Of a stretch of 64,000 nt of DNA, positions 18,054 through 47,604 are shown piece after piece (positions within the stretch are counted from its first letter, which is position 1; each line of letters starts with the position of its first letter). Source of the stretch: PVC group bacterium (lineage in GTDB: Bacteria > Verrucomicrobiota > Kiritimatiellia > CAIKKV01). A program made the translations under genes and the position numbers. Where the stretch lies: contig CAMDGM010000008.1 in the NCBI GenBank assembly GCA_945898015.1, positions 39,766-103,765 on the forward strand. Direction: 5' to 3'. Under the pieces are notes generated by a model, which was not told where the DNA came from, did no database searches, and saw only the letters and a list, made by a program, of their open reading frames with translations.

Positions 18054-19484
18054 TCACCGGAGGCCGGCCGAGTCTCCGGCCAAGGCATCGAAAAACCGGC
18101 CGGCCAGCGTCTGGAAAAGGATGCGGCCATCCTCCGCCAGCGACCGATACCGCTCGTAATAGAGGCACTCCATGGGATCCACCGTTTCATCCCCGCGCGC
18201 GGCGCGCCGGGTGTGGTAACCGAGGGCCGCCGGAAAATACCGGCTCAACCGCTGACGGAGGGACGCGTCCCGTTCCGCATGCAACGGCGCCTGGCCGCAG
18301 AGCCAGAGGCGGCCAAACGCGGCACGCGCAATCAGCGGAAACAAATCCAACCCGAGGCCGGTGAACGCCCGCCCCAGACGCGATTGGAATTTCCACACCG
18401 TCCACACCGGAATCCGCACCGGCTTTCCTCCGGGCCCCAGCCGCTCCGACGGGTGATAGCCGCCGATTCCAAAAAATCGAACAGCCGGATACATCAACGC
18501 AAAGGGAATCCCCTGAACCATCATCAACACCACCGCGCCCGCCCACCCCGCCAACGCCCGCGCGACGTCGCCAATCCGGACGGGGGCGTCCAGTTGCGCC
18601 AGCAGCCAGGGCTCCGTGATCTCCACGGCCGCCCCGTCATCCGGGGATATGACCCGCGAGCCGCTGACAATCTTCCCCCGGAACTCCAGATTCCGCCCCA
18701 CATACACACCGTCCAGAACCACGCAGTCCGAAAGCTCGGTCTGCTGGTCGACGATCACATGATTGCCGATGACGGCATTCGGGCCGATGACCGCCATGGG
18801 ATGAATCCGGCAATCGTTGCCAATCGTCAGGGGCGGACGCAATTCAACAGACGGGGGAATCAGCACGTTGTACCCGATGGAGGCGCCGTCGTGGCTCAAA
18901 TACCCCGGCGACACATATCGCGCCCCCTCCCCCTTGACCAGGCTCATGTTCAGCTCGAAATAGGCCGCCACATCCCGGATCAGGAACGGATCCAGAGACA
19001 ACTCGGACCACGCCCGGAAGTCCGCCCCGCAACCCGCATCCAGCATCGACAGGACATCCGTTCCCGGTAGAGCAAGCAGGCACGCCGTCCGCGCCCCCGC
19101 CACAAGGCGGTAGGCGCCGCCTCCGGCGGGCGCCGGCCACGGCGGCTGGCTGAGACGATGGGGAAACACCGGGCCGCAGAGGTAAAGCAGGCCGTCCCTC
19201 CAGAGATCCGGAGCCCGGCGCAAATACGAGTCCGGATCCTCGATGGTCTTTAAAAAACCGTATTGGATGTTCAGACCCCAGCGACTGCCGTCGCCGCAAT
19301 ACGCCTCGACCTCATCGGCGCCGTCGCCGAGCACCACGCGGACCTCCTCCACATGAAGCTCGGCGGCCCACTCCAGCCAATACTCGATGAGGGGCTTCCC
19401 GCCGACCGGCGCCAGGCACCAGGCCCGCTCGCCGAGCGCCGTGCCGCAAGCCGAAACCACGCCTGTCTGGAAAACCGCCCTCAC
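18054..19484 (-). CDS. Three-part protein: degenerate nucleotidyltransferase domain, hexapeptide/left-handed beta-helix, degenerate polyprenyl-phosphate sugar transferase-like domain
   Basis: APVGGKPLIEYWLEWAAELHVEEVRVVLG (NTP_transferase-like); IGNDCRIHPMAVIGPNAVIGNHVIVDQQTEL hexapeptides; C-term PVRIPVWTVWKFQSRLGRAFTGLGLDLFPLIARAAFGRLWLCGQAPL...LYYERYRSLAEDGRILFQTL aligns by eye with bacterial sugar transferases. Confidence 0.75.
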   Translation of the reverse strand: MRAVFQTGVVSACGTALGERAWCLAPVGGKPLIEYWLEWAAELHVEEVRVVLGDGADEVEAYCGDGSRWGLNIQYGFLKTIEDPDSYLRRAPDLWRDGLLYLCGPVFPHRLSQPPWPAPAGGGAYRLVAGARTACLLALPGTDVLSMLDAGCGADFRAWSELSLDPFLIRDVAAYFELNMSLVKGEGARYVSPGYLSHDGASIGYNVLIPPSVELRPPLTIGNDCRIHPMAVIGPNAVIGNHVIVDQQTELSDCVVLDGVYVGRNLEFRGKIVSGSRVISPDDGAAVEITEPWLLAQLDAPVRIGDVARALAGWAGAVVLMMVQGIPFALMYPAVRFFGIGGYHPSERLGPGGKPVRIPVWTVWKFQSRLGRAFTGLGLDLFPLIARAAFGRLWLCGQAPLHAERDASLRQRLSRYFPAALGYHTRRAARGDETVDPMECLYYERYRSLAEDGRILFQTLAGRFFDALAGDSAGLR

Positions 19485-19822
19485 GCGGACGCCTTCAGGG
19501 CCTCGTCGACGGTGTCGAAAATCTCGAACACCTTGTAGGCGCGGGTGATCTCGAAGACCAGCCGGGCTCGTTTCTGCAATCGGGCGATCCGGATATCCCC
19601 GCCGCGTTCGCCGCAGCGCTTGAGAAGCACAATCAACAGGCCCAGCCCGGCGCTATCGATGAACTCCATCGCCCCCAGATCGAGCACCATCTGGCGGACG
19701 GAATCATGCTCGTTCATCCACCGGAAAACCTGGTCCCGGAACGAATCCACGTTGGCGGCCGTCAAGGCTCCCCCGAGCGTAACCACCCCCCGACCCTCGC
19801 GCACCTCGAACTGCAAATTCAT
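19481..19822 (-). CDS. STAS-domain anti-sigma-factor antagonist-like protein
   Basis: 113 aa; VVTLGGALTAANVDSFRDQVFRWM, MVLDLGAMEFIDSAGLGLLIVLLKRC (phosphorylatable Ser in DSAGLG). Confidence 0.93.
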   Translation of the reverse strand: MNLQFEVREGRGVVTLGGALTAANVDSFRDQVFRWMNEHDSVRQMVLDLGAMEFIDSAGLGLLIVLLKRCGERGGDIRIARLQKRARLVFEITRAYKVFEIFDTVDEALKASA

Positions 19823-19841: not shown

Positions 19842-20576
19842 CTAATACGCTCCCCGGCCCAGCAAAACCGCCGGCACGGTCTTCAAGAGAATAACAATAT
19901 CCGACCCGAGATTCTGGCTGTGAATGTACTGCAGATCCAGCCGGACCTGCTCCTTGAAGGGGATTTCGGAACGGCCCTGAATCTGCCACAGGCAGGTCAG
20001 CCCGGGTTTCGCATGCAGCCGCTTCCGCTCTTCCAGCGTGTACAACGCCACTTCGCGCGGCACGGGGGGGCGCGGCCCGACCAGCGCCAGATCCCCCAGC
20101 AGGACATTCAAAAACTGGGGCATTTCGTCGATGCTGAAGCGCCGGATAAACCGGCCCACCCGCGTGATGCGGGGATCCTGCTTCATCTTGAAAATAACCC
20201 CGTCCCCGGATTCGTTTTTCGCCGCCAGCGCATCCTTCAGCTTGTCCGCATTCCGCACCATGGATCGGAATTTGTAGAATTTAAACAGCCGGCCGTACTG
20301 CCCCACGCGGGTCTGGGCGAAGAACACCGGCCACCCGTCCTCCCACACGATCGCCAGTGCCACGCCAACCAGCAAAGGCGACAAGAGCAGCAGGCCGACC
20401 GAGGCGCCGGCGATGTCCAGAAGACGCTTGAGCACAAACAGGCTGCGGAGACTGAATTCCCAGGCCGCCAGCTTGACGGCCTGCCGCCGGCGCAACCGGC
20501 GCACACTAGCCTGCGACACAGGCAGGTCCAGCGTCTTGAACAATTCCATTCGCGCCTGATAGAGAGACTCATTCAT
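19842..20576 (-). CDS. Polyprenyl-phosphate sugar phosphotransferase (bacterial sugar transferase, EPS initiation)
   Basis: KRLLDIAGASVGLLLLSPLL, FYKFRSMVRNADKL, RRFSIDEMPQFLNVLLGDLALVGPRPPVPREV. Confidence 0.95.
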   Translation of the reverse strand: MNESLYQARMELFKTLDLPVSQASVRRLRRRQAVKLAAWEFSLRSLFVLKRLLDIAGASVGLLLLSPLLVGVALAIVWEDGWPVFFAQTRVGQYGRLFKFYKFRSMVRNADKLKDALAAKNESGDGVIFKMKQDPRITRVGRFIRRFSIDEMPQFLNVLLGDLALVGPRPPVPREVALYTLEERKRLHAKPGLTCLWQIQGRSEIPFKEQVRLDLQYIHSQNLGSDIVILLKTVPAVLLGRGAY

Positions 20577-22621
20577 GACCCCTCCGCCCCTTCATCCCGA
20601 CAAGACGACTCAAAGGTGAAATCCCGCGCCACCACAAACAGGATGACATTCTCGCGCTCCCGGCGAACCACGTCAATATGTTTAGCAATCGCCCGGATAA
20701 TCCGCAATCCGCGGCCCCGGTCCGCCTTCTCGGTCTGTCTCATGGAAAAGGCCAGACGCTCCTCGAAATCCCACTCCCGCCCGTGATCCCGGAACAGTAA
20801 CCACGCGCCGTGCTCGGTCAGTCGTAGCTTTAAATCGATTCGGGAATCCCGCGGCGCTTCGGCATGATCCACCACATTCGCCCCGTGCTCCATCACCAGC
20901 AACTGGGCGGCGCCGGCGGCTTCCTCCGGCCACTGCTGCTCAATCAGGACCCGTTTCACCTCGGAGGCCAACGCCGCCACCTCGGCATGCGTGGGCGCAA
21001 TGGCCCGCTCTAGCCGAACCGAGGGCGGATCGACCGTTCGCACCACCAGAAGGGTGCAGTCATCCTGCGACAGCTGATACCCCTGATGCGCCAACCGGTC
21101 CAGAATTTCACGGGCCGGATCGACGATTTCCGGATTCCCCGACACCGCCCCCAAAACGACACCCAGATTCACATCCCCGCAGGGGTCACCGTCATCCGCT
21201 TGCCTAGCCTCCATCAACCCGTCGGTGAAGATGAACAGGCTGGCACCGGCCGGCAGGACCATTCGCACTTCATCGGCAGTCGTATACGGCGGCAAATCCT
21301 GTTCGGAAGGCAGGCCGATCGGCAATCCCCCCCGATCGGGAAACGACGGCAACACATGGCCGGACGCCTCCACCATCAGCGGCATCGGATGTCCGCAATT
21401 GAACGCCACGCACTCCCGGGCCGCAACATCAAAGACGGCCATGAACAATGTGGCGTACAACTCCGGGTTCGTCACATAATAGCGGAACCGGCGGTGAATT
21501 TCGCTGCACATGGCCGCCGGCCCGCGATCGACATATTCGCGGACCACCTCGCTGACCAGAGCCTTAAGCAAGGTGGAGATCATGGCGGGCCCCACCCCAT
21601 GCCCGGCGACGTCCCCCACGTAAACGCACACACGATCCCCGGACAATTTGATGATATCAAAGACGTCCCCGCCCACGCTCATGCTGGACTGATAGGCGCT
21701 TCGAATTTCCATCGTCCGGCTGAAGAACGGATCCGTGGTCAACAGCTTGCGCTGCAGCGATCCGGCCACCTCCAGCTCATGCGCCATGCGGGACTGCCAT
21801 TGACGGAGTTCGTCATTCTGCCTCTTGAGTTGAAGGGCATTCCGGACCCGGACCAGCAGTTCGCGGGCATGGAACGGCTTGCGGATGTAATCAAACGCGC
21901 CCTTCGCAAAGGCGTGCTCGACATCCTCCAGCGTCGAGCGGGCCGTGACCATGATCACGGGGATATGCCGCGTCGCCGGATCCTCGGCCAGACGCTGACA
22001 CACCTCGTAGCCGGACAGCCCCGGCATGACGACGTCCACCAGCGCAACATCCGGGTCCGTTTTCCGGGCCAATTCAAGGGCCTGCTCGCCGGTGTCAGCC
22101 TCAATTACCTCCGCGCCGCGCGCGGCCAGGAGCTTGCGTAAAAAAAGACGGTTCGGCAGCGCGTCATCCACCACCAAAATGCGCCCTTCCAGCCGGGCGG
22201 TGCCGGAGGGAGGCAACGCGTCCTGGCCAGGCAGCGGCGGCGCCCAGGTCTTCTGCCAGTGGTCCAGGCGCGACGTCAGGTCGGCGCAGCGGCCGAGATC
22301 GCCCTGCCGGGCATACCGGCTCAACTCCTCGCCCACCACCGAAATCTCGGGCGATCCCGCCGTTCCGCCCATCCCCTGCAACGAATGCGCCTGGGCGCGG
22401 ATGCTGTCAATGTCATGCGCGGCAATGGCAATTCGCAACACGTTGATGATCAGCCGCAACTGCTTGGCAAACAGCCCCAGAAGCTCCTCGTCCACTTCAT
22501 CCAGCGAGGTCCGAAAGGCCTGCGCGCGAGACTCCAGATCCGGGATCATATCCTGGAACCACGTGACACTCAGGCCCTGATCCGGAGGAACCAGGCTGCC
22601 GCCCTGCTCAGGAGAGGTCAT
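20573..22621 (-). CDS. HPt-REC-PP2C (SpoIIE-like) phosphatase-HATPase (RsbW-like) signalling protein
   Basis: AHSLQGMGGTAGSPE (HPt); ILVVDDALPNR, VALVDVVMPGLSGYEV (REC); VGGDVFDIIKLSGDRVCVYVGDVAGHGVGPAMIS, FIFTDGLMEAR (PP2C); LLVMEHGANVVDHAEA, FRDHGREWDFEE, RGRGLRIIRA (HATPase). ATG 22621 overlaps the glgP stop. Confidence 0.92.
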   Translation of the reverse strand: MTSPEQGGSLVPPDQGLSVTWFQDMIPDLESRAQAFRTSLDEVDEELLGLFAKQLRLIINVLRIAIAAHDIDSIRAQAHSLQGMGGTAGSPEISVVGEELSRYARQGDLGRCADLTSRLDHWQKTWAPPLPGQDALPPSGTARLEGRILVVDDALPNRLFLRKLLAARGAEVIEADTGEQALELARKTDPDVALVDVVMPGLSGYEVCQRLAEDPATRHIPVIMVTARSTLEDVEHAFAKGAFDYIRKPFHARELLVRVRNALQLKRQNDELRQWQSRMAHELEVAGSLQRKLLTTDPFFSRTMEIRSAYQSSMSVGGDVFDIIKLSGDRVCVYVGDVAGHGVGPAMISTLLKALVSEVVREYVDRGPAAMCSEIHRRFRYYVTNPELYATLFMAVFDVAARECVAFNCGHPMPLMVEASGHVLPSFPDRGGLPIGLPSEQDLPPYTTADEVRMVLPAGASLFIFTDGLMEARQADDGDPCGDVNLGVVLGAVSGNPEIVDPAREILDRLAHQGYQLSQDDCTLLVVRTVDPPSVRLERAIAPTHAEVAALASEVKRVLIEQQWPEEAAGAAQLLVMEHGANVVDHAEAPRDSRIDLKLRLTEHGAWLLFRDHGREWDFEERLAFSMRQTEKADRGRGLRIIRAIAKHIDVVRRERENVILFVVARDFTFESSCRDEGAEGS

Positions 22622-25110
22622 GGCCGGCTCCTTTCCGGCCGCGCGCCGACCGGCTGGATGTTCCAAATCCGCCCGGCATATTCCCGGATGGCGCGATCGC
22701 TGGAAAACCCGCCCATGCGAGACACGTTCAACACCGCCCGGCGAGTCCAGTCCGCCGGTTCCCGATATAGCGCCTCCACCCGGGCCTGTGCGTCCACATA
22801 GGAGCGAAAATCCGCCAGATGGAAGTATGCATCCCCCCATTCGGTCAACATGCGCCAGATATCGAGGAAAAGGCCGGGCTCATCAGGACAGAAGGTGTTA
22901 TCCCGCAACGCATTCATCACCGCCCCAAGCTCGGCGTCGCGCGCCACCCACTCCGAGGGCTGATACGTCGGACGCAGCGCGTCCAGCTCTTCCGCCCGGT
23001 GGCCGAAAATGAAAATATGGTCCAGCCCCACGGCCTGGGCGATCTCTATGTTGGCGCCATCCCAGGTGCCGATGGTCAACGCCCCGTTGAGCGCCAGCTT
23101 CATGTTCCCGGTTCCCGACGCCTCCGTCCCGGCCGCCGAGATCTGCTCCGACAGGTCGGCCGCCGGAATGATGACCTCCGCCAGCGACACCTTGTAGTCC
23201 GGAATAAAGACCACCCGCAGGCGATCCCGCAACCGCCGGTCCGCCTCCAGAATCCGGGACAGATTGTTGATCAGCTTGATGATGAGCTTGGCCATCGCAT
23301 AGGACGGCGCGGCCTTGGCGCCAAACACAAAGGTGCGGGGCACCATATCCAGGGAAGGCCGGTCCCGCAGGCGAAGATACAGAGCGATAATGTGCAGCAC
23401 ATTCAGCATCTGCCGCTTGTACTCATGCAGCCGTTTCACCTGGACGTCAAAGAGGCTGGCCGGATCCGGCGCCACCCCCAGGCGCTCGCGGATCAGGCGC
23501 GACAGCCGTTCTTTGTTGCGGAGCTTGATCCGGCCCACGAGGTCCCGGAATTGCGGATCCGCCCCGAACGGCTCCAGCCGCCGCAACTCATCCGCATCCA
23601 GAATCCACCCGTCCCCGATCCGGCCCGTGATCAGCTCCGCCAGCTCCGGATTACACTGCCGAAGCCAGCGGCGATGCGTGACCCCGTTCGTCACGTTGCA
23701 GAACTTCTCCGGCCACAGGGCCGCGAAATCCGACGCCACCCGCCGGCGCAACAACTCCGAATGCAACTGCGCCACCCCGTTGACCGCATGGCTGCCCACC
23801 ATGGCCAGATGCGCCATGCGGACTTGCTTCACGTCCCCTTCCTCAATCAACGACATCCGCCGGATACGGGCGTCGTCGTCCGGATACACCTCGGCCACAT
23901 GCCGGAGAAACCGGGCGTTGATCTCGTAGACAATCTGCAGATGCCGGGGCAGAACCCGCTCGAACAGGGGCACAGGCCACTTCTCCAGCGCCTCGGGAAG
24001 AAGCGTATGATTGGTATACGCCAGCGTCCGGGAGGTGATGTCCCAGGCCGTTTCCCAGGGAATCTCCTCCTCGTCAACCAGACAGCGCATGAGCTCCGCC
24101 ACGGCCAGCGAGGGGTGCGTGTCGTTCATCTGCACCGCCGCCGCCTCCGGCAAACGGTGCCAATCGCGGGAAGCCGCGCTGAAATTCCGCGTCATATCCC
24201 GGATGGAGCAGGCCACCAGGAAATATTCCTGGAGAAAACGCAATTCGCGACCGGCGCTGGTATTGTCGGAGGGATACAGCACCTTGGTGATGGTTTCGGC
24301 CCAGTTCTTCTCCTCGACGGCCCGCACATAATCGCCCCGGTTGAACACTTCCAGCCGGAATCCCTGGGCGGCCCGTGAACTCCACAGGCGGAGCATGTTG
24401 ACTCGCGCGCCCCCCCATCCCATCACCGGCACGTCGTAGGGAATGCCTTCGATCATCTGCCAGTCCGTCCAGACCGATTGCGCGCCACCATGCGGGCGGG
24501 GGACCGACGTCGTCCGGCCGTAGGCGAGCACGCTGACCGCGTGCTCCGGGTGGACGATTTCCCAAGGGTTGCCCAGCTTCAGCCAGTCATCCGGCTGCTC
24601 CGTTTGCCAGCCATTATCAAATTCCTGCCGGAACATGCCATGCTCATATCTCAGTCCATGCCCGACCCCCGCATACCCCAGCGTGGCCAGCGAATCGAGA
24701 TAACAGGCCGCCAGCCGGCCCAACCCGCCGTTTCCAAGCCCCGCATCCGGCTCCAGCTGCTCAAGCGCCTCCTCATCCCACTGAAGCGACTTGAAAAGGG
24801 GCCCCCACGCCTCCCCCAACCCCAGGGCCAGCACGTTATTCTTCAGCAGGCGGCCAATCAGAAACTCCAGGGAAAGGTAATGGACCTGCTTCCCGACCGC
24901 CGGGGCCCCCGCCTCGCCCGAGGCCCGCAGCATCTTCTCCAGGGCCAGCTCGCGAATGGCCAGACACACGCAAAACCAGATATCGTAATCAGTCGCCTGC
25001 GCCAACGTCTTGCCTCTCACCGAAGCAAGGTGCTGCCGAATCCGGCCCAGTAAATTATTCTGGAGCGCGCCCGAAGTTTTCCGCTTGCACAATTGACCCG
25101 GCATATTCAT
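22618..25110 (-). CDS. glgP: Glycogen/starch/alpha-glucan phosphorylase
   Basis: ATG 25110 with upstream [80 protein letters not shown] (PLP region). Confidence 0.96.
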
Positions 25111-28100
25111 GGAACTCCTGTGATCCTGCACTCACCCACGGGGTGTTCATCCGTTTTTCTCGGCGCCGGCCTCGCGAATCCGAGCCACTGCGCCAACTTG
25201 GCCGCCAACTCCTCCGGAGAAACGGGCTTGGCGATGTAATCGTCCATCCCCGCGGCCAGGCATTTCTCCCGATCCCCCTCGAGCGCATGCGCCGTCATCG
25301 CCAGGATCGGAACGCGGGGCCCGGCGCCCTCGCGCCGCCGGATCTCCGCCGCCGCTTCATACCCGTCCATCTCCGGCATCTGGCAATCCATCAGAATCAA
25401 GTCGTACGGACTGCGCCGAATCGCATCAAGGGCCTCCAGCCCGTTGCCGGCCACATCCGCCGCATACCCCAGCTTCCGGAGCTGGCTCAGGGCCACCTTC
25501 TGATTCACCGGATTGTCTTCCACCAGGAGAATCCGATCGCCGGGCCGCGCCGAAGACACCACCGCAACAGGCTTTTCCGCCGGGCTCCACACCGCGCCGA
25601 CAACCGCCCCGCTCAGAGCCGTCACAAGCGCATCCATCAGCAGCGACGGCTTGACCGGCTTGCTCAGGCAAAGCGCGAAACCCGCCTGCCGCATCTCTTC
25701 GTTCGTGCGGGTCTGCCCCATCGACGTGAGCAGGATCAGCGGCAACGCCTGCAACTCCGGACTCGCCCGGACCTGCCGGGCAAACTCGAACCCGTCGGCG
25801 CCCTCCATGATGTGATCCACCAACGCCACCGAAAAGGGCCGCCCCTCCGCCTGCGCCCGCCGCAACAGGCCGAGCGCATCCCCGGCCGTCTCCGCCAGCT
25901 CCGGAACCATGTTCCACGACCGGAACTGATGATCGAGAATCTTGCGGTTCACCGGAAGATCGTCCACTACCAACACCCGCGCCTTCTTCAGATTGCCCCA
26001 GGCCGTCGACTTCTCTGGCGCAATCGAGGCCGAAACCCCGAAGGGCGCCGTGAACCAGAAGGTCGACCCCGCGCCTTTCTCGCTCGTCACGCCGATCGTC
26101 CCGCCCATCAGCTCGACCAGCCTTTTGCAGAGCGCCAGGCCAAGCCCCGTTCCCCCGTATTGACGGGACGCCGAACCATCCACTTGCGAAAACGCCTCGA
26201 ATAAGCGCCCCTGGGCTTCCGGGGAAATGCCGATGCCCGAATCGATCACCGCAAAACGCATCCACCGCGTCGGCCCGTCTGTCCGATCAAGGGAAACGGC
26301 CAGCACCACCTGGCCCTTTTCTGTGAACTTTACGGCGTTGCTCAGCAGATTCAGCAGGATGTGCCGAAGCCGGCCCACATCGCCGTTCAACCACCGGGGG
26401 CTCTCCCGCTCAAACTCCCACAACAGCTCGATTTTCTTGGCGGCCGCGCTCCCCTCCAAAAGGTCGATCAAACTCTCCACGACACCCACCAGGTCAAAAT
26501 CCTCCGACTCCACTGTCATCTTCCCGGCCTCGATCTTGGAAAAGTCCAGGATGTCGTTAATGGTGGAAAGCAGCAGGTCGCCGCTGTTTCGGATCGTCTC
26601 CACAAAATCCCGCTGCTCGGCCGTGAGCGGCGTGTCCAGAAGCAACCCGGTCAATCCGACCACGGCATTCATCGGCGTGCGGATCTCATGGCTCATGTTG
26701 GCCAGGAACTGGCTCTTGGCCTGCGTCGCTTTCTCGGCCTGCCGGGCCAGCTCGCGGGCCTGGGCAATCAACAGCTCCAGATCCCGGTTGGACTGCTCCA
26801 GTTCCGCCTGTTGGTGGCGAATTCCCGCATCAGCCCGGCTCAAAAGCACATAGATGACGCCCATCACCAGAGCCAGCAACACCGAGCCAACCGCGCCCCC
26901 CAGGACCATCAGCCGGCCAAAAGCCTCCTTTTCAGACGAGAAATCGCGCATGACCAGCAGATTGCCAACCTCTTTTCCAGAAACGTCGTGAAGCGGGATG
27001 GCCGCGATCCGCCAAAGCTTACCATCCACCACCACTTCGCCATCCGTTTCGCCCGAGCCCGCCTCATCGGGAACCGAATCCACCCAGGCGAGAACACGAT
27101 CGGGCAAACGGCCCTGGGACGCATACACCACCGTACTCCGTGGAAAACGAGCCCAGTCGGGCGCTTGTTCCTGCAACCGCATGCCGGCTTCCCAGGCCGC
27201 TCGATTCAAATGCTCCTTTCGGACGATCACGGCCAACTGGCTGGCGGATCGGGCATGCAGTCGCCGGAGCGTGTCGCTCAACTCTTTGCCTAATTCCAGG
27301 TATCCGACCCGCCGGCCACCATCAAAGACCGGACGGACCACCCGCAACGTCAAAGCGCCCAGGGCGTCCATTTCAAGGCCGGATACCGTTTTTCCGGTCC
27401 GCTCCGCCTCCAACAGGGTGAAGCGTTCGTTCCGATCGCCCCGTTTTTCGGGCTCATGCACGCGCAGCATGTAAACCTGATTGGTATCAAAGAATGAAAA
27501 ATGACTGATCTCGTTATCCTCGCGAAGCGACTCAAAGACCGGCCGCCAGGTGTTCAGCAGGCCCTGGGCATCCCCGGCGAGCAGGGCCTTCTGAACATCC
27601 GGATCGGCGGCAATCGGGTTGGCGGTTGAGGCCAGACCGGAAGCCTGTTCATCCAGGGAGACGCGAACATCGCTGGACACATCATGAATATCAGAGGCAA
27701 TCTCGTCCGCCAGCCGTTGTTGATTCTGCCGCCAGAGCAGCACCCCGGCGCCGACCGCCAAAACGACCATCAGCACCGACAGAGACGGAAACAACCGCCA
27801 CAGGACCGGCTTGGACGAAACGTCCATGCGGCCGATCGAAAAAACGGCGGTGGCGACGCCAATGAACAAGACCACCAACAATCCCACCGGCAACGCCACA
27901 CGGGTGGCGACTTCCCATTTCCAGGTCCGGGCGTCAATATCCATCCCGAACACGGCAGCCACAGCGCCGGTGTGAGGATCGACCAACGGGACCAACGCCG
28001 TGATCCACACCCCCCAATGGTCGGCGTACGGCCCTTCCGTGGCCGGCTGCCCCGAGTCAAACGCGAGATGAAACGATTCCGGCGCCTCCTCGTACACCTG

Positions 28101-28481
28101 GCCCGGGGCCGCGTGATCCTTGGAATTCACCGGCTCCGAGTCCAGATAGAAAAACACGGCCCCATCGCTCCGGTGTCCCATCAAGTACAGCCACCGCCAC
28201 TTCACATTGACCGAACAGGCGTCCGTAATCTGCTTCGTAATCCCCGCGTATTCTGGCTTGGCCAGATCCGCCTCCGTCCCGGAAAGCGCCTGGACCTGTT
28301 CCAGGTTCATGGTTTTCGCCACCAGCTGGGCCTGCTGAAGGAGGTCATCGCGCATTTCGTGATCGACCAGCCGCAGCATCACCACGGTGCCCAGCAACAC
28401 CAAGCCCAGAAGCGCCGCAAGGGCCACCGCCCCTCGGCGCCGGGCCTCATTCCAAAGCTGATCCTGCTGGACGGTCTTCAT
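25107..28481 (-). CDS. Hybrid sensor histidine kinase: two tandem periplasmic sensor modules, HisKA, HATPase, REC, REC
   Basis: 1124 aa; [66 protein letters not shown]; dCache_3-like [22 protein letters not shown] in the second sensor. Confidence 0.95.
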
Positions 28482-31183
28482 TCCGCCCTCTTCGCCCCTG
28501 AGAGCGTGTCCCGGATTTTAGCGGCCATGTCCGCCATTGAAAACGGTTTCTGGATAAACTGGACGCCTTCCTCCAGCACGCCATGCCGGGTGATGACATC
28601 CGCCGTAAACCCGGACATGAACAAACAGTTGAGCCCGGGCCGGGACGTCATCAGCCGTTCAGCCAGTTCGCGGCCGTTCATGCCGGGCATGACCACGTCG
28701 GTCACCAGCAGGTTAATCGTTCCGGCGTGTTCGTCCGCCATGCGCAACGCGGCCTGCGGCATGCCGGCCGCCAACACCGTATACCCCAGCTTCCGGAGCG
28801 TCCGGCTCATCGTGTTCAGGATGGCGGTGTCGTCCTCCACCAGCAGCACCGTCTCGGTCCCGCCCGGGGTGGGGCTCACTGGATTTGACGCCACGCTCAC
28901 GGCCTCCGCACCCACATGCCGGGGCAGATGGATCCGGAAGGTCGTGCCTTTCCCCGGCTCGCTGTAAACGCCGATGTGCCCCCGATTCTGCCGGACGATT
29001 CCATACACGGTAGCGAGCCCGAGCCCGGATCCTTTCCCCAGCGCCTTGGTCGTGAAAAAGGGCTCGAAAATCTCAGCCATCGTCTTCTTGTCCATCCCAC
29101 AGCCAGTATCGCTGACGGTCAACAGCACATAGTCGCCGGGAAGAAACCCGTCATGACGCAAGGTCTGGAATTCGTCCACGCAGACGTTTTCCGTCTCCAA
29201 GTGAACCGCCCCGACACCGTCAATGGCGTCACGCGCATTCACGCACAGGTTGGCCAGGATCTGGTCAATCTGGCCGGGATCCATCCGGACCGGCCACAGG
29301 TTCACGCCGGGCGACCAGACGAGCTCAATGTTCTCGCCGATCAGGCGGCGCAACATCTTGAGCATGCCCGCCACCGTCTCGTTCAGGTTGATCATCCGGG
29401 GCGCAATCGTCTGCTTGCGGGCGAACGCGAGCAATTGCCGGGTCAGCTCGGCGGCGCGACGGGCCGCCACCTGGATGTCCTCCAAATCACGCCGGGTCGG
29501 ATTGGACGGGTCGAGCTGTTCGGCCGCCAACTGGGCATACCCCAGAATGGCTTGAAGAATGTTGTTGAAATCGTGCGCCACGCCGCCGGCCAGCCGCCCC
29601 ACGGACTCCATCTTCCGGGCCTGGGCCAGCTGGCCCTCCAGGCCCAGCTGATCGGTGATGTCACGCTTCACGGCGACGTAGTTGACAATCACGCCCGCCA
29701 CATCGCGCACGGGTGAAATGGTCGCCTCTTCCGTGTAAAGCGATCCGTTCTTTTTCCGGTTGATCAGTCGGCCCTGCCAGGTCTTTCCGCTCGAAATCGT
29801 CTCCCACAATCCCCGATAGAACGCGTCGGTCTGCTCCCCGCTCTTGAGCATGCGCGTGGACTGCCCCACCACCTCCGCCCGCGTATATCCCGTCACGGTC
29901 TCGAACATGGGATTGACATACACAATGATCCCGCGCGCGTCCGTAATCGTGAACACCTCCGCCGCCTGCTCAATGGCCACCGAAAGCCGTTCCCGCTCGG
30001 CTTCGGCCTGCTTGCGCTCGGTGATATCGGCAATACTGGACAAGATGCAGGGGGAATGATTCACCTTGATCCGCTCGGCGGAATATAAGCCCGCGACCAA
30101 GCCGCCATTCTTTTTCCGAAACATGAACTCCCGGGCCACGACAGGGCGGCCCGCCTGAAGATCGGCCACGACACACTGCCGGGCCGCCTCGTTCACCCAC
30201 ATCCTCAGCCCGATCGACGAATCCGCCAGAACCTCTTCCCGGGTGAATCCCGTCGACGAAAGGAAGGCGTCATTGACCTCGAGGAACCGGCCGTCTTCCG
30301 CCCGCGTGATCGCAATGCCATAGGGCGATGTCTGGAACGCCCGGGCGTATTTCTCCTCGCTATCCCGCAGTTTCTGGGTACGCTCTTCCAGCAGGTCCTG
30401 CGCACGCAAGAGCGCCCGCTCCCGGCGGGCTCGCGCGCACAGCTCAACCAGATAATCGGGCTGAAAGGGCTTCTGCAGGTAGGCGACAGCCCCCCGTTTC
30501 ATCCACGTCAGGGCCAACTCGGAACCCCGATCGCCCGTGATCATCAGGCAGACACAGTCCGGCCGTTGCGCATGAAACGCATCAAGCAGGGAATCCCCCA
30601 TGCCATCGGGCAGGTGATAATCCAGCACAGCCGCGTCATAGGCCTTTTTCGTGAATGCCTCGGACGCCTCCCGGACGGTTCCCACCGTGTCCGCCTGATA
30701 GCCGTACACCGCAAACGAGGCTTTCAGGACATTGGCCAGCGGTTCCATATCCTCGACAATCAGCACCCGGAGAAAATGGTGCGGCTGGCTGCCGCTGAGC
30801 AAATCACGCACGCGGGACAAAAACTCGGCCGGCTCGATCGGGATCGCCAGGAAGGCGTTCGCACCCAGGTCCGCGGTAATGCGTGCGGCCTCGACTCCGG
30901 CAAACGTGGCCGACACCACCAGAATGGGCACCATGTTGAACGCCCAATAATCCGGCGAACGCAGCAGCCGGCAAAAGCGCCACCCGTCGATGCCGGGCAT
31001 GAACAAGTCGGTAATAATGAGCGCGGGGGGGAGCTCCGGCGTGAGAGCCGCCAGGGCGGCCGACGCATTCCCGAAATCCCGCACCTCGTAACCCTCTTTA
31101 CGCAACAACCCGGACAAGGCCGCGCGCTGCGTGGCGTCGTCATTGACGACGATCAACCGCCTGCTGGATGGCTGGATAGTCAT
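28478..31183 (-). CDS. Hybrid histidine kinase: REC-REC-PAS-PAS-HisKA-HATPase-REC
   Basis: [47 protein letters not shown], two PAS segments, [66 protein letters not shown]. Start ATG 31183 overlaps the previous stop. Confidence 0.94.
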
Positions 31184-31797
31184 TCTGAAGCCCCCTGATC
31201 GTCCCGCACCAAGTCGGGATACAGCTTTTTCATACACTCGGTGCAAACACCATGACTGAACTCCGCCTCGGTATGCTCGTGAATATACACTTCAATTTGT
31301 TTCCAGATTCCCTGGTCGTCCCGGATCTTCTTGCAGCTCGCGCAAATGGGGATGAGGCCGCGCAGGGTGCGAATGTCCGCCAAAGCCGCCTGCAAGGCCA
31401 GAACCTTGGCGGCCACGGTGGCTTGGATCTCCAGCATCCGCACTCCCACATTGATCCGGGCGCGCAATTCTCCGGCATCAAAGGGCTTGGCCAGATAATC
31501 GTCGGCCCCGGCATCCAGCCCGGCAATCAGGTCGGCCTTATCCCCTTTGGTGGTCAGCATGATCAGGTATGGCGGCTGATCGGTCTGCACGGCGCGGGCG
31601 CGACGGCACACGTCCAGCCCGCTGAGCTCCGGCATCATCCAGTCCAGGATGACCATCCGGGGCGCATCGGGCTTCTGCATGGCCTCCCAGGCCTCCGCCC
31701 CGTTGACCGTCGCCACCACGTCATGGCCCTGCTTTTTAAGGATGTTCATCAGGACAATCCGGGAGGTCAAGTCGTCTTCCGCAATCAGGATACGCAT
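31180..31797 (-). CDS. Response regulator: REC plus C-terminal Cys-pair module
   Basis: RILIAEDDLTSRIVLMNILKK, VILDWMMPELSG, DDYLAKPFDAGELRARI; C-term IPICASCKKIRDDQGIWKQIEVYIHEHTEAEFSHGVCTECMKKLYPD. Confidence 0.93.
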   Translation of the reverse strand: MRILIAEDDLTSRIVLMNILKKQGHDVVATVNGAEAWEAMQKPDAPRMVILDWMMPELSGLDVCRRARAVQTDQPPYLIMLTTKGDKADLIAGLDAGADDYLAKPFDAGELRARINVGVRMLEIQATVAAKVLALQAALADIRTLRGLIPICASCKKIRDDQGIWKQIEVYIHEHTEAEFSHGVCTECMKKLYPDLVRDDQGASE

Positions 31798-31840
31798 GGG
31801 AACCGCTCCGCTATCAAGTTCTGTCCTCGACCCGTTTTCA

Positions 31841-34800
31841 TCATCCCTTGAGACCCTTCTCCATGGCTTCTTTCAACCGGGCAAAATCCGCTTCCAGCCG
31901 GACCATGCGGACCGTCACGGCGGCCAGGTCGCCGGTTTTGGCCGCCTTCTCCATCTCCAAGGCGGTCACCCGCAAAACTTCGCCGCCCAGGCTGGCCGAC
32001 GCGCCCTTGATCGTATGCGCCTGACGCTCGACACTGACGGCATCCGCCTTCCTCAAATAGCCCCGCAACGCCTCGATCTGCTTGGGGATGTCCTCCAGGA
32101 AAGCATGGATAATCTCGCCCGCCAGCTTCTCGTCATCCATCAGGCGGGCCAACATGCCGGCCTTGTCAAACACCGGAACAAAGCGATCCGCCAGCGGCAC
32201 GGGCCCGCCACCCGGGGCCGCCGGCACGGCCCCCCGATCCTGTTTTTTTTCCTTCAGCCATTTCCTCAATACTTCCGACAGGGTCGCAGGATCCACCGGT
32301 TTTGGAACGTAGTCGTTCATGCCCGCCTCCAGGCAGCGTTCCCGATCGCCCAGCATGGCATGGGCGGTCATGGCAATGACCGGAATGGCATGATTAAGCA
32401 CAGCGGAGTCGGCGCTGCGAATTTGGCGGGTGGCCTCAAACCCGTCCATTTCCGGCATCTGCACATCCATTAAAACCAGATCATACGGAAGCATTTCCAG
32501 GGCCTTGACCGCTTCGGCGCCGTCCGCCACGGCATCCGCATGCAGGCCCATCCTTTTGAGAATGCCCATCGCCACCTGCTGATTCGTGATATTGTCTTCG
32601 GCCAGCAGAATGCGAACCGCACTCAGGCGCACCTCTGACCACCCGGGTGGCATAACCCCGGCCGCCTTCGCGTGCCGCGGAGCTGGACCCGCCAGAACGG
32701 AGGCCAGACTGTCGAAAATCTCGGACTGCCGGGCCGGCTTGGTCAAACAGGCAAAAAACCCGGCCTCCTTGACTTTCCGGAGTTCGCCTTGCACGCCCAG
32801 GGAGCTCAACAGCATCAGCTGCGTATCCTTCAGCGTGGCATCCGCCTTGATGGCCCGGGCCAGCGTCACGCCATCCATGTCCGGCATCTGCATGTCCAGG
32901 AGCGCCGCCACGAACGGAGCGCCGGCATCCCGGGCCCGCCGAAGCGCCTGCAGCGCGGCCGGGCCGTCTGGCGCCTCTTCCGGCCGCGCCCCCCAGGCCT
33001 GAAGCTGGATCATCAACACCTCGCGGTTGGTCGCATTATCGTCCACCACCAAAACGCGGGCTCCGCGAATCGTGCCCCGGAGTTCGGTGGCCGGGTCCGG
33101 CTTGCTTTGCTTGACAAACCGGGCCGTGAACCAGAATTCGGAGCCCATCCCTTTTTCACTCTCCACCCCGATCGTGCCGCCCATCAGCTCCGCCAACTGC
33201 TTGGCGATCGCCAGCCCCAGCCCGGAGCCGCCATACCGGCGCGTTGTCGAGGAATCCGCCTGGACAAACTTCTGGAACAACCGGTCCCGCTTCTCCGCCG
33301 CAATCCCGATGCCCGTATCCCGAACGGAAAAACGAACCACCACCTGGTCCGCGCTTTCCGACACCCGGCTGACCCGCACCACAATTTCCCCCTCATGGGT
33401 GAACTTCACCGCATTGCCGGCCAGATTGACAAGCACCTGACGCAGACGCCCGGAATCGCCGTACAGGTAATCCGGCACATCCGGCGCCACGGCGCAGATG
33501 AATTCGATCCCCTTGTCGTGCGCGCGAAGCGCGAGCGGGGCGACGAAGTCGTCCAGCAGGGCCCGCAACTTGAAGTCCAGCATTTCCAGCTCGAGCTTGC
33601 CCGCCTCGATCTTGGAGAAATCCAGAATATCGTTGATGATGGCCAGCAGGGATTCGCCGCTGGCGCGCACGGTCTCGGCATACCGGCGCTGCTCCTCGCT
33701 CAGGTCCGTATCCAGCAGCAAGCCCGTCATGCCGATCACCCCGTTCATCGGCGTGCGGATTTCATGGCTCATATTGGCCAGGAACTCGCTCTTCGCCAGG
33801 CTGGCCATCTCGGCCTGGGCAATGGCGGCTTCCAGCTTGTGATTGGTCTCTCGCAACAAATCCTCCGCCTGCTTGCGCATCAACGCCTCGCCCAGGTGTG
33901 CCGCGAACCCCTCCAGTTGCTTGATCGTCCCCGGGGAAAAACACCCCTTCCGGCGGTCGTTGAACTGAATCAATCCCACCACTTGCTCCTTGTTCCGGAT
34001 GGGCACCAGCGCCAGGGACGCATAGCCTTCCTGCATGCATCGATTGCGCGGGCGAAGCCGGGGCTCATCCCCCGGGGGAATCTCCAGAAGCGCGAACGAA
34101 TCGTTCGTCCAGCAGCTCCCGCTCGGCATCAAAAGCGGATGCACCGGATCAGAGGTTCCGGAAATCACCAGGCCGCAGGTGCATTCCAGGCAGGGCTTGT
34201 TGTCTTGGCCCCGACAGACCCCGCCGTTTTTATCGCGGGCCATAAGCGAGTTTTCCGTTAACAGGAAATCCTGGGAAAAGCCGTCCTGGGCGGCATACGG
34301 AAAGTCGTCCCCGTCCCGCAGGCGGATGCCCACGGCGTCGAACCCGGTTCGCGCCTTCACCGTGGCCAGAACGCGCTGAACCAACTCCCGCAACGAACCC
34401 GGCTCGTTGAGAATCTGCAAAGCCTCCGCGCTCATGTCGCGATAAACCTCGAGCCGCTTGCGCTCGGTGATGTCGGTGTCGCTGCCGCTATAGCCCCGCA
34501 AGGTCCCGTCGGGATTCAAAAGCGGGATCCCGTTGGTGGAGACCACCACGTGACGTCCATCCTTGGCCTGAACCATGTTTTCCAGGTCCCGAAACGACTC
34601 CTTTCGTTCAAAGACTGAAAGGGCCACCTTCTTAAACGCCTCGCGACCTGCTTCGGGATGAATCTCATAGAAATGCATCCGGCCCACCAATTCGTCCGGA
34701 CGGTACCCCAGCATCGCCTCCGACACATGGCTGACATACGTATAAAGCCCCTGCGGATCCACTTCCCAGACCATGGTGCCGCTCTGTTCCGCCAACTGGG

Positions 34801-36523
34801 TAAAGCGAATCTCGCTGTCGCGCAACACCGCCTGCTGGAGGCGAATACCACGGTCCGTGCGATAAAGCAGGACATAGATCAAACCCATCACCATCGACAG
34901 CAGCACCACCCCGGCCATGCCGCTCAACACCAGCAACCGCGAAAACGCCGCTTTCTCCGTGGTCACATCGCGCATCATCAGCAAGACGCCCACCGACTTC
35001 CCCGACGCGTCCGGTAACGGCAACGCGTAGACCCGCCACTCCTTCCCTCCGAATTTGGCCGCCCGATCCGCGTCACCGGGAACCAAAGACGCCAAGGCCC
35101 CGTTCTGTTCCACGATCGTCGCAAAAACATCCGGCAGATGACCCTGGGACGCATAGCTCACCACATACCGGGACAGGCGATCCCAGTCGGCCGGTCGGCC
35201 CTGAAACCGCCGTCCATCTACCCACTCGCGCCGGTCCAGGAACTCCTTGCCCACCAGCACGGCCAATTGATTGCCGGAGCGGACATACAAGGACTGCAAC
35301 ACCTCCTCGATCTCCTTGCCCAACTCCACATAGCCGACCCGCACACCGTCGACCACGACCGGGTCCACGACCCGCAACGTAAACGAGCCCATCGGCCCCA
35401 GTTCAAGCCCGGAGGTCCGCTGGCCGGTTCGCTCGGCCTCGGTCGCCGTAAATCGCTCAATCCGGTCACCCCGCCTGTCCGGCGCGTGGATCCGCAACAG
35501 ACAGACGCGCCGGGCATCCGTAAAATAAAAATGCGTGAGATTGAAATCCCGGTGCAACCGCTCAAACACGGGTTGCCAGGTCGCAATCAACCGGGCGACA
35601 TCCCCCTCGCGCAAGGCCGCTTGCGAAGCCGGATCGGCCGCAATGGGATCCAGCGCCACGGACAGGCCAAGCGCCTGCTGGTCCAAGGCGCTGCGCAAAT
35701 CCCGCTTTACCTCGGCAACAAAGCTTGACGCATTCCCGATAAACCGCTGCTGCTGCCATAGAATCACGCCCACTCCCCCTGTCAACAGGAGCACCAGGCT
35801 TGTCAGGGGCAGCAACAATCGCCTCAACACCGGCTTGGGGGAAACATTCGCGCGACGAACCGAGATCATGAAAGCGGCCGCACCGATCAACATCACCAGC
35901 ATCAGGCCCGTGGGCAAAGCGGCGCGGGCGGCGATGTCCCACGTCCACGCGCGGGCGTCAACATCCATCCCCAGCACGGCCAGCACCGTGCCGCTGTCCC
36001 GGTCCACCAGCGGAACCAGAGCGGTCACCCACGTTCCCCATCGATCGGACACGGGCCCCTCCACCGAGGACTCCTTGCGGTCGAAAACGGTCCGATACCC
36101 CGGCGGCGCTTCCTCGTAGACCTGCCCGGGAGGACTGGCGTCCTCAACCTCTGGCGATTCGCTGTCCACAAAGAAAAAGAGGTCCCCCGCCGGCTTGCGG
36201 CCCATCAGGTAAAGCCACTTGCAGCTTGGATTGGCGGAGCCAATGGACATCAGCTGCGTTTTCAGCTGCTGATAATCCAGCGAGGCCCGGTCGGCCTCCG
36301 TGCCGGTCAGCGCCTTGACGCGATCCACGTTCAGGGACTGCGCCACCAGACGCGCCTGCAGCAGAAGGTCGGCGCGCATCGCATGATCGGCCCGCATGAC
36401 CAGCCACCCGACAAACAAGGCGCCCGCCAGAACGCCCAGCCCCAACGCCAGCGTCAATGGCGGGGCCTTCCCCCCACCCCCGGATAAGCGGTCCGCTTTC
36501 TTTTCATTCCCAGGAAAAGTCAT
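31841..36523 (-). CDS. Large hybrid histidine kinase: tandem periplasmic sensors, PAS, GAF, HisKA, HATPase, REC, REC, HPt
   Basis: 1560 aa; SEIRFTQLAEQSGTMVWEVDPQGLYTYVS (PAS), Cys-rich GAF-like region, [78 protein letters not shown] (HPt). Confidence 0.95.
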   Translation of the reverse strand: MTFPGNEKKADRLSGGGGKAPPLTLALGLGVLAGALFVGWLVMRADHAMRADLLLQARLVAQSLNVDRVKALTGTEADRASLDYQQLKTQLMSIGSANPSCKWLYLMGRKPAGDLFFFVDSESPEVEDASPPGQVYEEAPPGYRTVFDRKESSVEGPVSDRWGTWVTALVPLVDRDSGTVLAVLGMDVDARAWTWDIAARAALPTGLMLVMLIGAAAFMISVRRANVSPKPVLRRLLLPLTSLVLLLTGGVGVILWQQQRFIGNASSFVAEVKRDLRSALDQQALGLSVALDPIAADPASQAALREGDVARLIATWQPVFERLHRDFNLTHFYFTDARRVCLLRIHAPDRRGDRIERFTATEAERTGQRTSGLELGPMGSFTLRVVDPVVVDGVRVGYVELGKEIEEVLQSLYVRSGNQLAVLVGKEFLDRREWVDGRRFQGRPADWDRLSRYVVSYASQGHLPDVFATIVEQNGALASLVPGDADRAAKFGGKEWRVYALPLPDASGKSVGVLLMMRDVTTEKAAFSRLLVLSGMAGVVLLSMVMGLIYVLLYRTDRGIRLQQAVLRDSEIRFTQLAEQSGTMVWEVDPQGLYTYVSHVSEAMLGYRPDELVGRMHFYEIHPEAGREAFKKVALSVFERKESFRDLENMVQAKDGRHVVVSTNGIPLLNPDGTLRGYSGSDTDITERKRLEVYRDMSAEALQILNEPGSLRELVQRVLATVKARTGFDAVGIRLRDGDDFPYAAQDGFSQDFLLTENSLMARDKNGGVCRGQDNKPCLECTCGLVISGTSDPVHPLLMPSGSCWTNDSFALLEIPPGDEPRLRPRNRCMQEGYASLALVPIRNKEQVVGLIQFNDRRKGCFSPGTIKQLEGFAAHLGEALMRKQAEDLLRETNHKLEAAIAQAEMASLAKSEFLANMSHEIRTPMNGVIGMTGLLLDTDLSEEQRRYAETVRASGESLLAIINDILDFSKIEAGKLELEMLDFKLRALLDDFVAPLALRAHDKGIEFICAVAPDVPDYLYGDSGRLRQVLVNLAGNAVKFTHEGEIVVRVSRVSESADQVVVRFSVRDTGIGIAAEKRDRLFQKFVQADSSTTRRYGGSGLGLAIAKQLAELMGGTIGVESEKGMGSEFWFTARFVKQSKPDPATELRGTIRGARVLVVDDNATNREVLMIQLQAWGARPEEAPDGPAALQALRRARDAGAPFVAALLDMQMPDMDGVTLARAIKADATLKDTQLMLLSSLGVQGELRKVKEAGFFACLTKPARQSEIFDSLASVLAGPAPRHAKAAGVMPPGWSEVRLSAVRILLAEDNITNQQVAMGILKRMGLHADAVADGAEAVKALEMLPYDLVLMDVQMPEMDGFEATRQIRSADSAVLNHAIPVIAMTAHAMLGDRERCLEAGMNDYVPKPVDPATLSEVLRKWLKEKKQDRGAVPAAPGGGPVPLADRFVPVFDKAGMLARLMDDEKLAGEIIHAFLEDIPKQIEALRGYLRKADAVSVERQAHTIKGASASLGGEVLRVTALEMEKAAKTGDLAAVTVRMVRLEADFARLKEAMEKGLKG

Positions 36524-46374: not shown

Positions 46375-47604
46375 CTACGGCACCACGAGCGGCCGCTGCG
46401 AATTTCCTTTCGACCCGCTGGTGTTCTGGTACAACTGCGCCGCGGAGTCGGAGGACACCGTGGTGGCATAGGCCGACAGGGCGGCCTCGACAATTTCGCG
46501 CAGGAACGCAAACCGGCGCGGCGGCACATACACGATATCGCCCGGCGACAGCCGGATGTCGACCTCCTTGCCCTGGATGATCCGGTTGAAGTTGACCACC
46601 CGCGCCTCCGGCCGGGACAGCGATCCGCGCACCACCACAATCCGGCCATCGGACGTGGCCTTCAAGCCCCGGGCCTCCGTGAGCGCCTGGATGAGGGAGA
46701 CGGCCGAGAAGAACCCGATCGTGCGAGGAAAGTTCACCTCGCCCAGCACATAGATGCTCCGGACGAGCGAGGACGGGATGGTCACGATATCCCCATTCCT
46801 CAGCTCCACATTCTGCCGGTTATCGCCCTGATGCAGGAGCCCGTCAAAATCCAGGGGCACCAGCTGGCCCCCCCGCATCAGGGTGGCATGCTGGAAATCG
46901 GCCATCTCCGCGGTCGAATTCCGGAAATAACCGGTGCGGATCCCGCGGGCCTTGGCAATGGCGTCCAGCACCGTGGTGCGGCCCTGGAGCAAATAGGTGC
47001 CGGGATAATTCAGCTCGCCCAGGATGGTGTACGTCTGGCTTCCGAAGCGCACGGGCACCACATTGATAATCCCCCGGTTGAGCGTGGCGGACACCCGCTT
47101 TTGCAAATCCGCGCGCAGTTCGTCGAGCGTCCGGCCCGCCGCCGGCACGGTGCCGACCAGCATATAGGCCACGTTGCCGTTGGGGTCCACCGGCGCCTCG
47201 CGCGTGCTCCCCTCTTCGCCGTAGATGGACAAGCTCAGCACATCGCCCACGCCAAGGCGGTAGGGCCCCGCCGCCGCCTCGGCCGCCACGACGTTGCTCG
47301 CCGGCGGGGACGTGAAATCAAACCGCTCATAGGCCGGAGCCTGAGCGGCTTCGGACGGCGGCGCCACGCGGCCCCGATCCGGCGAGGCGCACCCGCCCGC
47401 CAGCATCAGCGCGGCCGCCAGGACCCGCAGGCCTTCACGGCTGAGGCGCCGGAGCGGACGGCCCCGGAATAGGCAGAATAGTGGATTCAGAGGATGTTCC
47501 TTGGTTGTTACCCGTTCCCGACGAAACGCCAGTCCCCGTGTTGACGCTGAAAAAAGTATCCGAAACCAGCGCGGCGCCATACTCGGAGGCGAACGTCTTG
47601 ACAA
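46375..47604 (-). CDS. Polysaccharide export protein (Wza-like) lipoprotein, copy 1 (start uncertain)
   Basis: ALMLAGGCASP lipobox; YRLGVGDVLSLSIYGEEGSTREAPVDPNGNVAYMLVGTVPAAGRTLDELRADLQKRV (Poly_export), SLBB-like IYVLGEVNFPRTIGFFSAVSLIQALTEARGL. Confidence 0.92.
   Translation of the reverse strand: MSRRSPPSMAPRWFRILFSASTRGLAFRRERVTTKEHPLNPLFCLFRGRPLRRLSREGLRVLAAALMLAGGCASPDRGRVAPPSEAAQAPAYERFDFTSPPASNVVAAEAAAGPYRLGVGDVLSLSIYGEEGSTREAPVDPNGNVAYMLVGTVPAAGRTLDELRADLQKRVSATLNRGIINVVPVRFGSQTYTILGELNYPGTYLLQGRTTVLDAIAKARGIRTGYFRNSTAEMADFQHATLMRGGQLVPLDFDGLLHQGDNRQNVELRNGDIVTIPSSLVRSIYVLGEVNFPRTIGFFSAVSLIQALTEARGLKATSDGRIVVVRGSLSRPEARVVNFNRIIQGKEVDIRLSPGDIVYVPPRRFAFLREIVEAALSAYATTVSSDSAAQLYQNTSGSKGNSQRPLVVP

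Follow-up and report, generated by a model that had tools for sequence, protein, structure and literature searches.

A conserved pseudoenzyme with a phosphoglycosyl transferase fold, encoded beside an active phosphoglycosyl transferase and a partner-switching gene set in Kiritimatiellia

The window, a stretch of 64,000 nucleotides from a PVC group bacterium of the class Kiritimatiellia, encodes a protein, here termed pseudo-PGT, that has the fold of a monotopic phosphoglycosyl transferase (PGT) and yet, judged by its residues, fails as an enzyme both of this type and of the sugar nucleotidyltransferase (NTase) type. Its gene is the last in a minus-strand run encoding, in order, a SpoIIE protein, an intact PGT, a STAS protein and the pseudo-PGT. 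The pseudo-PGT is probably a catalytically dead, membrane-associated regulatory subunit of the intact PGT, operating within a partner-switching cassette.

Domain Organization and Predicted Fold

From the N- to the C-terminus, the pseudo-PGT consists of a truncated NTase-like domain, a left-handed beta-helix, a hydrophobic helix and a monotopic PGT fold, encoded at the following window positions:

18054..19484, minus strand: pseudo-PGT gene, 476 aa, GTG start, overlapping the stop of the STAS gene by 4 nt
18990..19484, minus strand: NTase-like domain, residues about 1-165, without the GxGTR loop, PKPLLP lysine or NGD Asp
18594..18905, minus strand: left-handed beta-helix, residues about 194-297, with no family-wide conserved His
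18474..18575, minus strand: 34-residue hydrophobic helix, residues 304-337
18075..18473, minus strand: PGT-like domain, residues about 338-470
18342..18347, minus strand: D380-L381, at the site of the catalytic Asp-Glu dyad

The motifs quoted in the original prediction, which described this protein as a possible pseudoenzyme from the DNA letters, are all encoded in the minus-strand ORF at 18054-19484. An AlphaFold2 model of the whole protein, built with 43 homologues, has a mean pLDDT of 90, and its Foldseek matches in the PDB include 8x7s (tlr0611, E 1e-15), Arabidopsis VTC1-KJC2, eIF2B subunits and GMPPA/GMPPB. The NTase homology of the N-terminus is significant by family profile, with PDB 8x7s matched at E 1.2e-27 and eIF2B-epsilon, GlmU and RmlA also recovered. 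Residues 1-78 and about 161-297 align with 8x7s, and the stretch between is shortened, at about 82 versus about 146 residues. Pfam identifies the beta-helix as Hexapep (E 7.5e-12), as had been predicted.

The C-terminal 181 aa were also predicted alone (AlphaFold2, pLDDT 92.5), and the only PDB matches of this model below E 0.001 in Foldseek are PglC (8g1n and 8e37) and WbaP (8t53), with E 6e-6 to 4e-5 and TM-scores of 0.60-0.66 by query length. Profile searches of the PDB with the pseudo-PGT family likewise recover PglC (E 3e-8) and WbaP (E 4e-7 to 1e-6), and hhalign of the family against the active PGTs of the cassettes gives 96.3% (E 1.5e-9). Bac_transf is matched by relatives at E 9e-6 and 5e-3. 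In the window protein it escapes a single-sequence Pfam search, and family profiles are required to detect the PGT domain. The resemblance to bacterial sugar transferases, originally noted by eye, was therefore not an obvious one, and both the profiles and the fold bear it out; a C-terminus without a PGT fold had been named as an outcome that would refute the pseudoenzyme prediction. The substitutions of DE by DL and of GPRP by GQAP were read correctly in the window protein. The proposed equivalence of KFQSR in the window protein with KFRSM in the active enzyme was rejected, as no relative carries KxRSM and the profile alignment has a gap at this position.

Loss of Catalytic Residues

The pseudo-PGT alignment comprises 67 rows representing 65 proteins (L082 and L092 are included twice), all from Verrucomicrobiota. 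At the position of the PGT catalytic Glu, Arg is found in 31 rows, Leu in 14, Lys in 11 and other residues in the remainder, with Glu in 0/67 rows and 0/65 proteins. The dyad Asp is kept in 51/67 rows (about 50 of the 65 proteins) and is missing as well in sister clades, a pattern indicating that the site has been stripped but not fully erased. Neither KxRSM nor GPRP occurs in any of the 67 rows. An Arg at the position of PglC R111 is present in just 6/67 rows, such that the substrate-orienting Lys and Arg of PglC (K59 and R111) are not a feature of the family. P327 of the hydrophobic helix is kept in 45/67 rows, and the Asp of the DX12P motif is replaced in most rows by Trp or Arg. D452, in the last helix, is Asp in 48/67 rows; its counterpart in PglC is an Asp reported to stabilise the re-entrant helix. 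The PGT neighbours within the cassettes keep KxRSM, DE and GPRP in 26/26 cases.

The N-terminal half is similarly depleted, confirming the prediction of an NTase-derived domain without its nucleotide loop or metal site: the GxGTR loop and the metal Asp of NGD are each present in 0/67 rows. Distant members carry "NG" followed by Leu, Phe, Tyr or Val at the metal site (e.g., ILNGYFF), showing a route by which the NGD motif decayed; no active ancestor with the same NTase/beta-helix/PGT architecture was found among these members. A few members contain DExP, and NGD is matched twice in the family, but these matches are located at other positions and were rejected as a retained dyad and a retained metal site, respectively. 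Acyltransferase activity of the beta-helix was also rejected, given the lack of a conserved His; the best His column (242) is His in 34/67 rows.

Selection and Distribution

Across six related pairs, dN/dS ranges from 0.08 to 0.26 for the whole pseudo-PGT gene and from 0.02 to 0.27 for its C-terminal part, indicating that the gene is under selection and the dead domain is maintained. Together with the absence of catalytic residues in 65 homologous proteins, these low ratios identify the pseudo-PGT, at the level of sequence, as a member of a conserved pseudoenzyme family and not a sequencing error; the loss, which was to be discounted if peculiar to this genome, extends to all homologues.

Within the class, 83/346 genomes match the family profile at E 1e-20, with about 50 of the matched places being of the window type and many others matching in the beta-helix part alone. 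The family is also found in other families of the phylum and includes the cultured Pontiella sulfatireligans (Kiritimatiellota). Full-length matches in a pattern scan belong mainly to Verrucomicrobiota, Kiritimatiellota and Lentisphaerae records. One match labelled Neomarinimicrobiota (L058) has the same coordinates as that of a genome placed in the window's own class (G021).

The Putative Partner-Switching Cassette and Its Neighbourhood

The remaining features of the cassette are located as follows:

19481..19822, minus strand: STAS-domain protein of the anti-anti-sigma type, 113 aa
19652..19654, minus strand: Ser57 of the STAS protein (DS[A/S]GLG), the expected phosphorylation site, invariant in STAS alignment A5
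19842..20576, minus strand: intact small monotopic PGT (Bac_transf), 244 aa, two genes upstream of the pseudo-PGT
20124..20129, minus strand: D150-E151, catalytic dyad of the active PGT, invariant in 26/26 cassette PGTs
20442..20576, minus strand: residues 1-45 of the cassette PGT, an N-terminal extension that other PGTs of the same genomes almost entirely lack
20573..22840, minus strand: protein with Hpt, response regulator, SpoIIE PP2C phosphatase and HATPase_c_2 kinase domains

A STAS protein with the conserved Ser, a HATPase_c_2 kinase and a PP2C phosphatase thus occur together as a partner-switching gene set, and the phosphatase and kinase motifs of the SpoIIE/HATPase proteins are intact in most members. 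The original prediction of a dead scaffold or regulator of the transferase two genes upstream gains support here and extends further than was foreseen, as the intervening gene encodes a switch protein of the STAS type, the leading gene of the run encodes the phosphatase/kinase for this protein, and a pseudo-PGT paralogue is fused to such a kinase. The true start of the SpoIIE protein is probably downstream of 22840. Directly upstream of the cassette, a glycogen/carbohydrate phosphorylase gene (window 22618-25131) overlaps the annotated start of this ORF, and a uridine-kinase-like gene on the opposite strand converges on the pseudo-PGT end. Scans for promoters and terminators gave no clear signal, with 2 promoter-like and 10 terminator-like sites compared with 0.7 and 4.8 in shuffles.

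The conserved extension of the cassette PGT places about 45 aa, with an invariant Trp39, ahead of the Bac_transf domain. The same ten genomes contain 23 further PGT matches, of which 21 begin at a profile position of at least 42 and the others at 39 and 23. This extension is a candidate docking segment.

In the first set of loci, an intact PGT directly adjoins the pseudo-PGT in 25/25 cases, with the STAS gene between or beside them and the SpoIIE protein usually upstream. A further 20 loci from across the phylum have an adjacent PGT in 17/20 and a STAS domain within the fetched region in 13/20; the PGT adjacency fits a scaffold or regulator of this enzyme. The exceptions to PGT adjacency are L112 (STAS present, PGT not found), L116 (a 3.6-kb contig) and L122 (neither found); a second pseudo-PGT copy in L091 also has no PGT beside it. 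Within Kiritimatiellia, a STAS gene lies no more than 2.5 kb away in 51/52 pseudo-PGT places, and no more than 200 bases away in 48; the lone place without a near STAS gene is the end of a 4.9-kb contig. STAS-SpoIIE pairs are also found without a PGT.

Several hybrid sensor kinases (dCache, PAS, GAF and Hpt domains; up to 1560 aa) are encoded upstream on the same strand (window 25107-39366), and are possible inputs to the receiver and Hpt domains of the SpoIIE protein. Also on this strand is a polysaccharide export protein (Poly_export, SLBB; window 46375-47604). In several related loci its homologues are found close to the cassette, in keeping with a polysaccharide locus.

Fusions and Related Architectures

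Relatives within Pontiella (L089, L090 and L091) encode a pseudo-PGT paralogue of about 650 aa with a C-terminal HATPase_c_2 kinase domain (E 1e-15 in L090). This paralogue has its own STAS gene, and its own PGT in L089 and L090. The joining of a pseudo-PGT to a kinase that is elsewhere separate supports a place for the pseudo-PGT inside the partner switch.

In a sister family (L130-L134), the NTase/beta-helix protein adjoins a PGT and has no PGT-like domain, which is therefore not needed in every case. In the members whose sequence was read at this point (L130, L132 and L133), the next ORF encodes a polymerase-beta-like nucleotidyltransferase (GGGYGRGEGG, NDLDFF), which is fused on in L094, indicating that the NTase/beta-helix module is constant and its C-terminal partner variable.

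Other combinations of these domains were observed. At L110:9674-11062 (minus strand) and L111:5460-6794 (plus strand), the immediate neighbour of the active PGT is a WecG/TagA glycosyltransferase joined to a degenerate PGT half of another kind; that of L110 matches Bac_transf at E 3e-6 and lacks DE and GPRP. Directly after the pseudo-PGT, L072:9418-10872 and L129:5636-7090 encode a WecG/TagA-type glycosyltransferase with a STAS-like C-terminus (WecG E 1e-58 and STAS E 1e-20 in L072; STAS by profile in L129). Next to the pseudo-PGT at L126:8833-9534, STAS and a response-regulator receiver are combined in one protein.

Proposed Role and Alternative Explanations

The pseudo-PGT is almost always found beside a working PGT and usually beside a phosphorylation switch, suggesting that the switch controls the PGT through its dead relative. 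In the proposed mechanism, the SpoIIE phosphatase and HATPase kinase would set the phosphorylation of Ser57 of the STAS protein, which in its unphosphorylated form would dock either on the pseudo-PGT or on its pair with the PGT. Docking would switch the first committed step of surface-polysaccharide synthesis, in which undecaprenyl phosphate receives a sugar-1-phosphate. At the membrane, the pseudo-PGT domain would lie beside the active PGT as a heterodimer partner or allosteric lid. The dead NTase/beta-helix part would bring about oligomerisation of the complex and might also sense a nucleotide sugar, as GMPPA does for GMPPB. Physical contact, the direction of control and any sensing of a ligand are inferred, and the specific proposal that the partner switch acts directly on the first polysaccharide-synthesis enzyme by way of a double pseudoenzyme (dead NTase and dead PGT) is plausible, at slightly below even chances.

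Several observations count against a regulatory subunit. Gene adjacency is no proof of contact, and the Asp kept in about 50/65 proteins could allow residual chemistry or substrate binding. The PGT-like domain is missing in L130-L134, some members of the phylum have no near STAS gene, L122 and the second copy in L091 are without a PGT, and STAS-SpoIIE pairs exist that are free of one.

The last of these points also suit the strongest rival, itself unlikely at roughly one chance in five, that the pseudo-PGT is a passive scaffold or membrane anchor gathering the PGT and downstream glycosyltransferases outside the switch, with the STAS and SpoIIE proteins acting elsewhere, for example on a sigma factor. 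Beta-helix and NTase folds are frequent oligomerisation platforms, and some Verrucomicrobiota pseudo-PGT/PGT loci have no STAS gene nearby; however, the almost unbroken association with STAS genes in the class and the HATPase kinase domain of the pseudo-PGT paralogue favour a place within the switch. Less likely again is a GMPPA-like feedback sensor, in which the dead NTase binds a nucleotide sugar, the C-terminal domain relays this state to the PGT and the STAS gene is merely co-expressed. The whole-model Foldseek matches to GMPPA/GMPPB, VTC1-KJC2 and eIF2B are in keeping with such a sensor, as is the nucleotide sensing assigned to the accessory domain of WbaP (PMC10942596), but nucleotide binding is doubtful in a domain that has lost the nucleotide-binding loop and lysine and is shortened in its middle relative to 8x7s.

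A little less probable still is a changed enzyme, in which Asp380 and the family-specific Arg, Lys or Leu next to it carry out another phosphosugar reaction (e.g., hydrolysis, or transfer to another acceptor). The frequent retention of D380 (about 50/65 proteins) and the strong conservation of G397, P400 and Y443 are compatible with this, whereas the absence of the Glu, KxRSM and GPRP from every member, the loss of the Asp itself in sister clades, and the assignment of K59, R88, D93-E94 and R111 as PGT active-site residues (PMC12802240) argue against it. A decaying pseudogene or assembly error, to which the missing catalytic motifs might point, is already refuted by ORFs that are open in dozens of genomes, a dN/dS well below 1 and a conserved operon.

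Comparison with Known Systems

Post-translational control of the committing step in bacterial polysaccharide synthesis is poorly known. If the partner switch does act on the PGT through the double pseudoenzyme, the pseudo-PGT would represent a PGT pseudoenzyme family, and a STAS protein would have a target outside transcription. Many genomes encode the switch, the enzyme and the candidate adaptor next to one another, including that of the cultured Pontiella, making the question of the STAS target directly testable. No earlier description of the pseudo-PGT family or the cassette was found in the literature searched, in which "phosphoglycosyl transferase" was joined with neither "pseudoenzyme" nor "STAS domain".

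The C-terminal half of the pseudo-PGT resembles the small monotopic PGTs (PglC, Bac_transf PF02397) in its fold, the Gly-x-x-Pro turn, the last-helix Asp (D452) and, usually, the nucleophile Asp. It differs in lacking the Glu, KxRSM, GPRP and the DX12P Asp, in the shortened segment before the dyad, and in being fused behind a dead NTase/beta-helix. This N-terminal part shares the order and fold of its two domains with sugar nucleotidyltransferases that carry a beta-helix (8x7s tlr0611, GlmU and GMPPB), from which it departs by the loss of the nucleotide loop, lysine and metal Asp and by truncation of the domain middle. GMPPA/GMPPB and eIF2B gamma/epsilon are likewise NTase/beta-helix proteins, and GMPPA, itself non-catalytic, regulates its active paralogue; the pseudo-PGT differs from these in adding a dead PGT domain and in that the adjacent active enzyme is a PGT and not an NTase.

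Two signalling systems offer precedents. STAS control of polysaccharide has a precedent in the syp locus of Vibrio fischeri, where SypA, a STAS protein of unknown target, is controlled by SypE (PMC4517449, PMC10120452). SypE similarly combines a receiver, a PP2C phosphatase and an RsbW-like kinase in one protein, and SypA consists of a lone STAS domain bearing the serine that is conserved in the cassette STAS proteins; the domain order is different, a pseudo-PGT is not described there, and the window cassette encodes a candidate target. A signalling protein that controls a PGT directly is EpsW of Myxococcus xanthus, which binds and activates the PGT EpsZ (PMC12802240). As proposed for the cassette, a small signalling protein acts post-translationally on an initiating PGT, although EpsW is a response regulator, EpsZ is a large PGT, and no pseudoenzyme adaptor stands between them.
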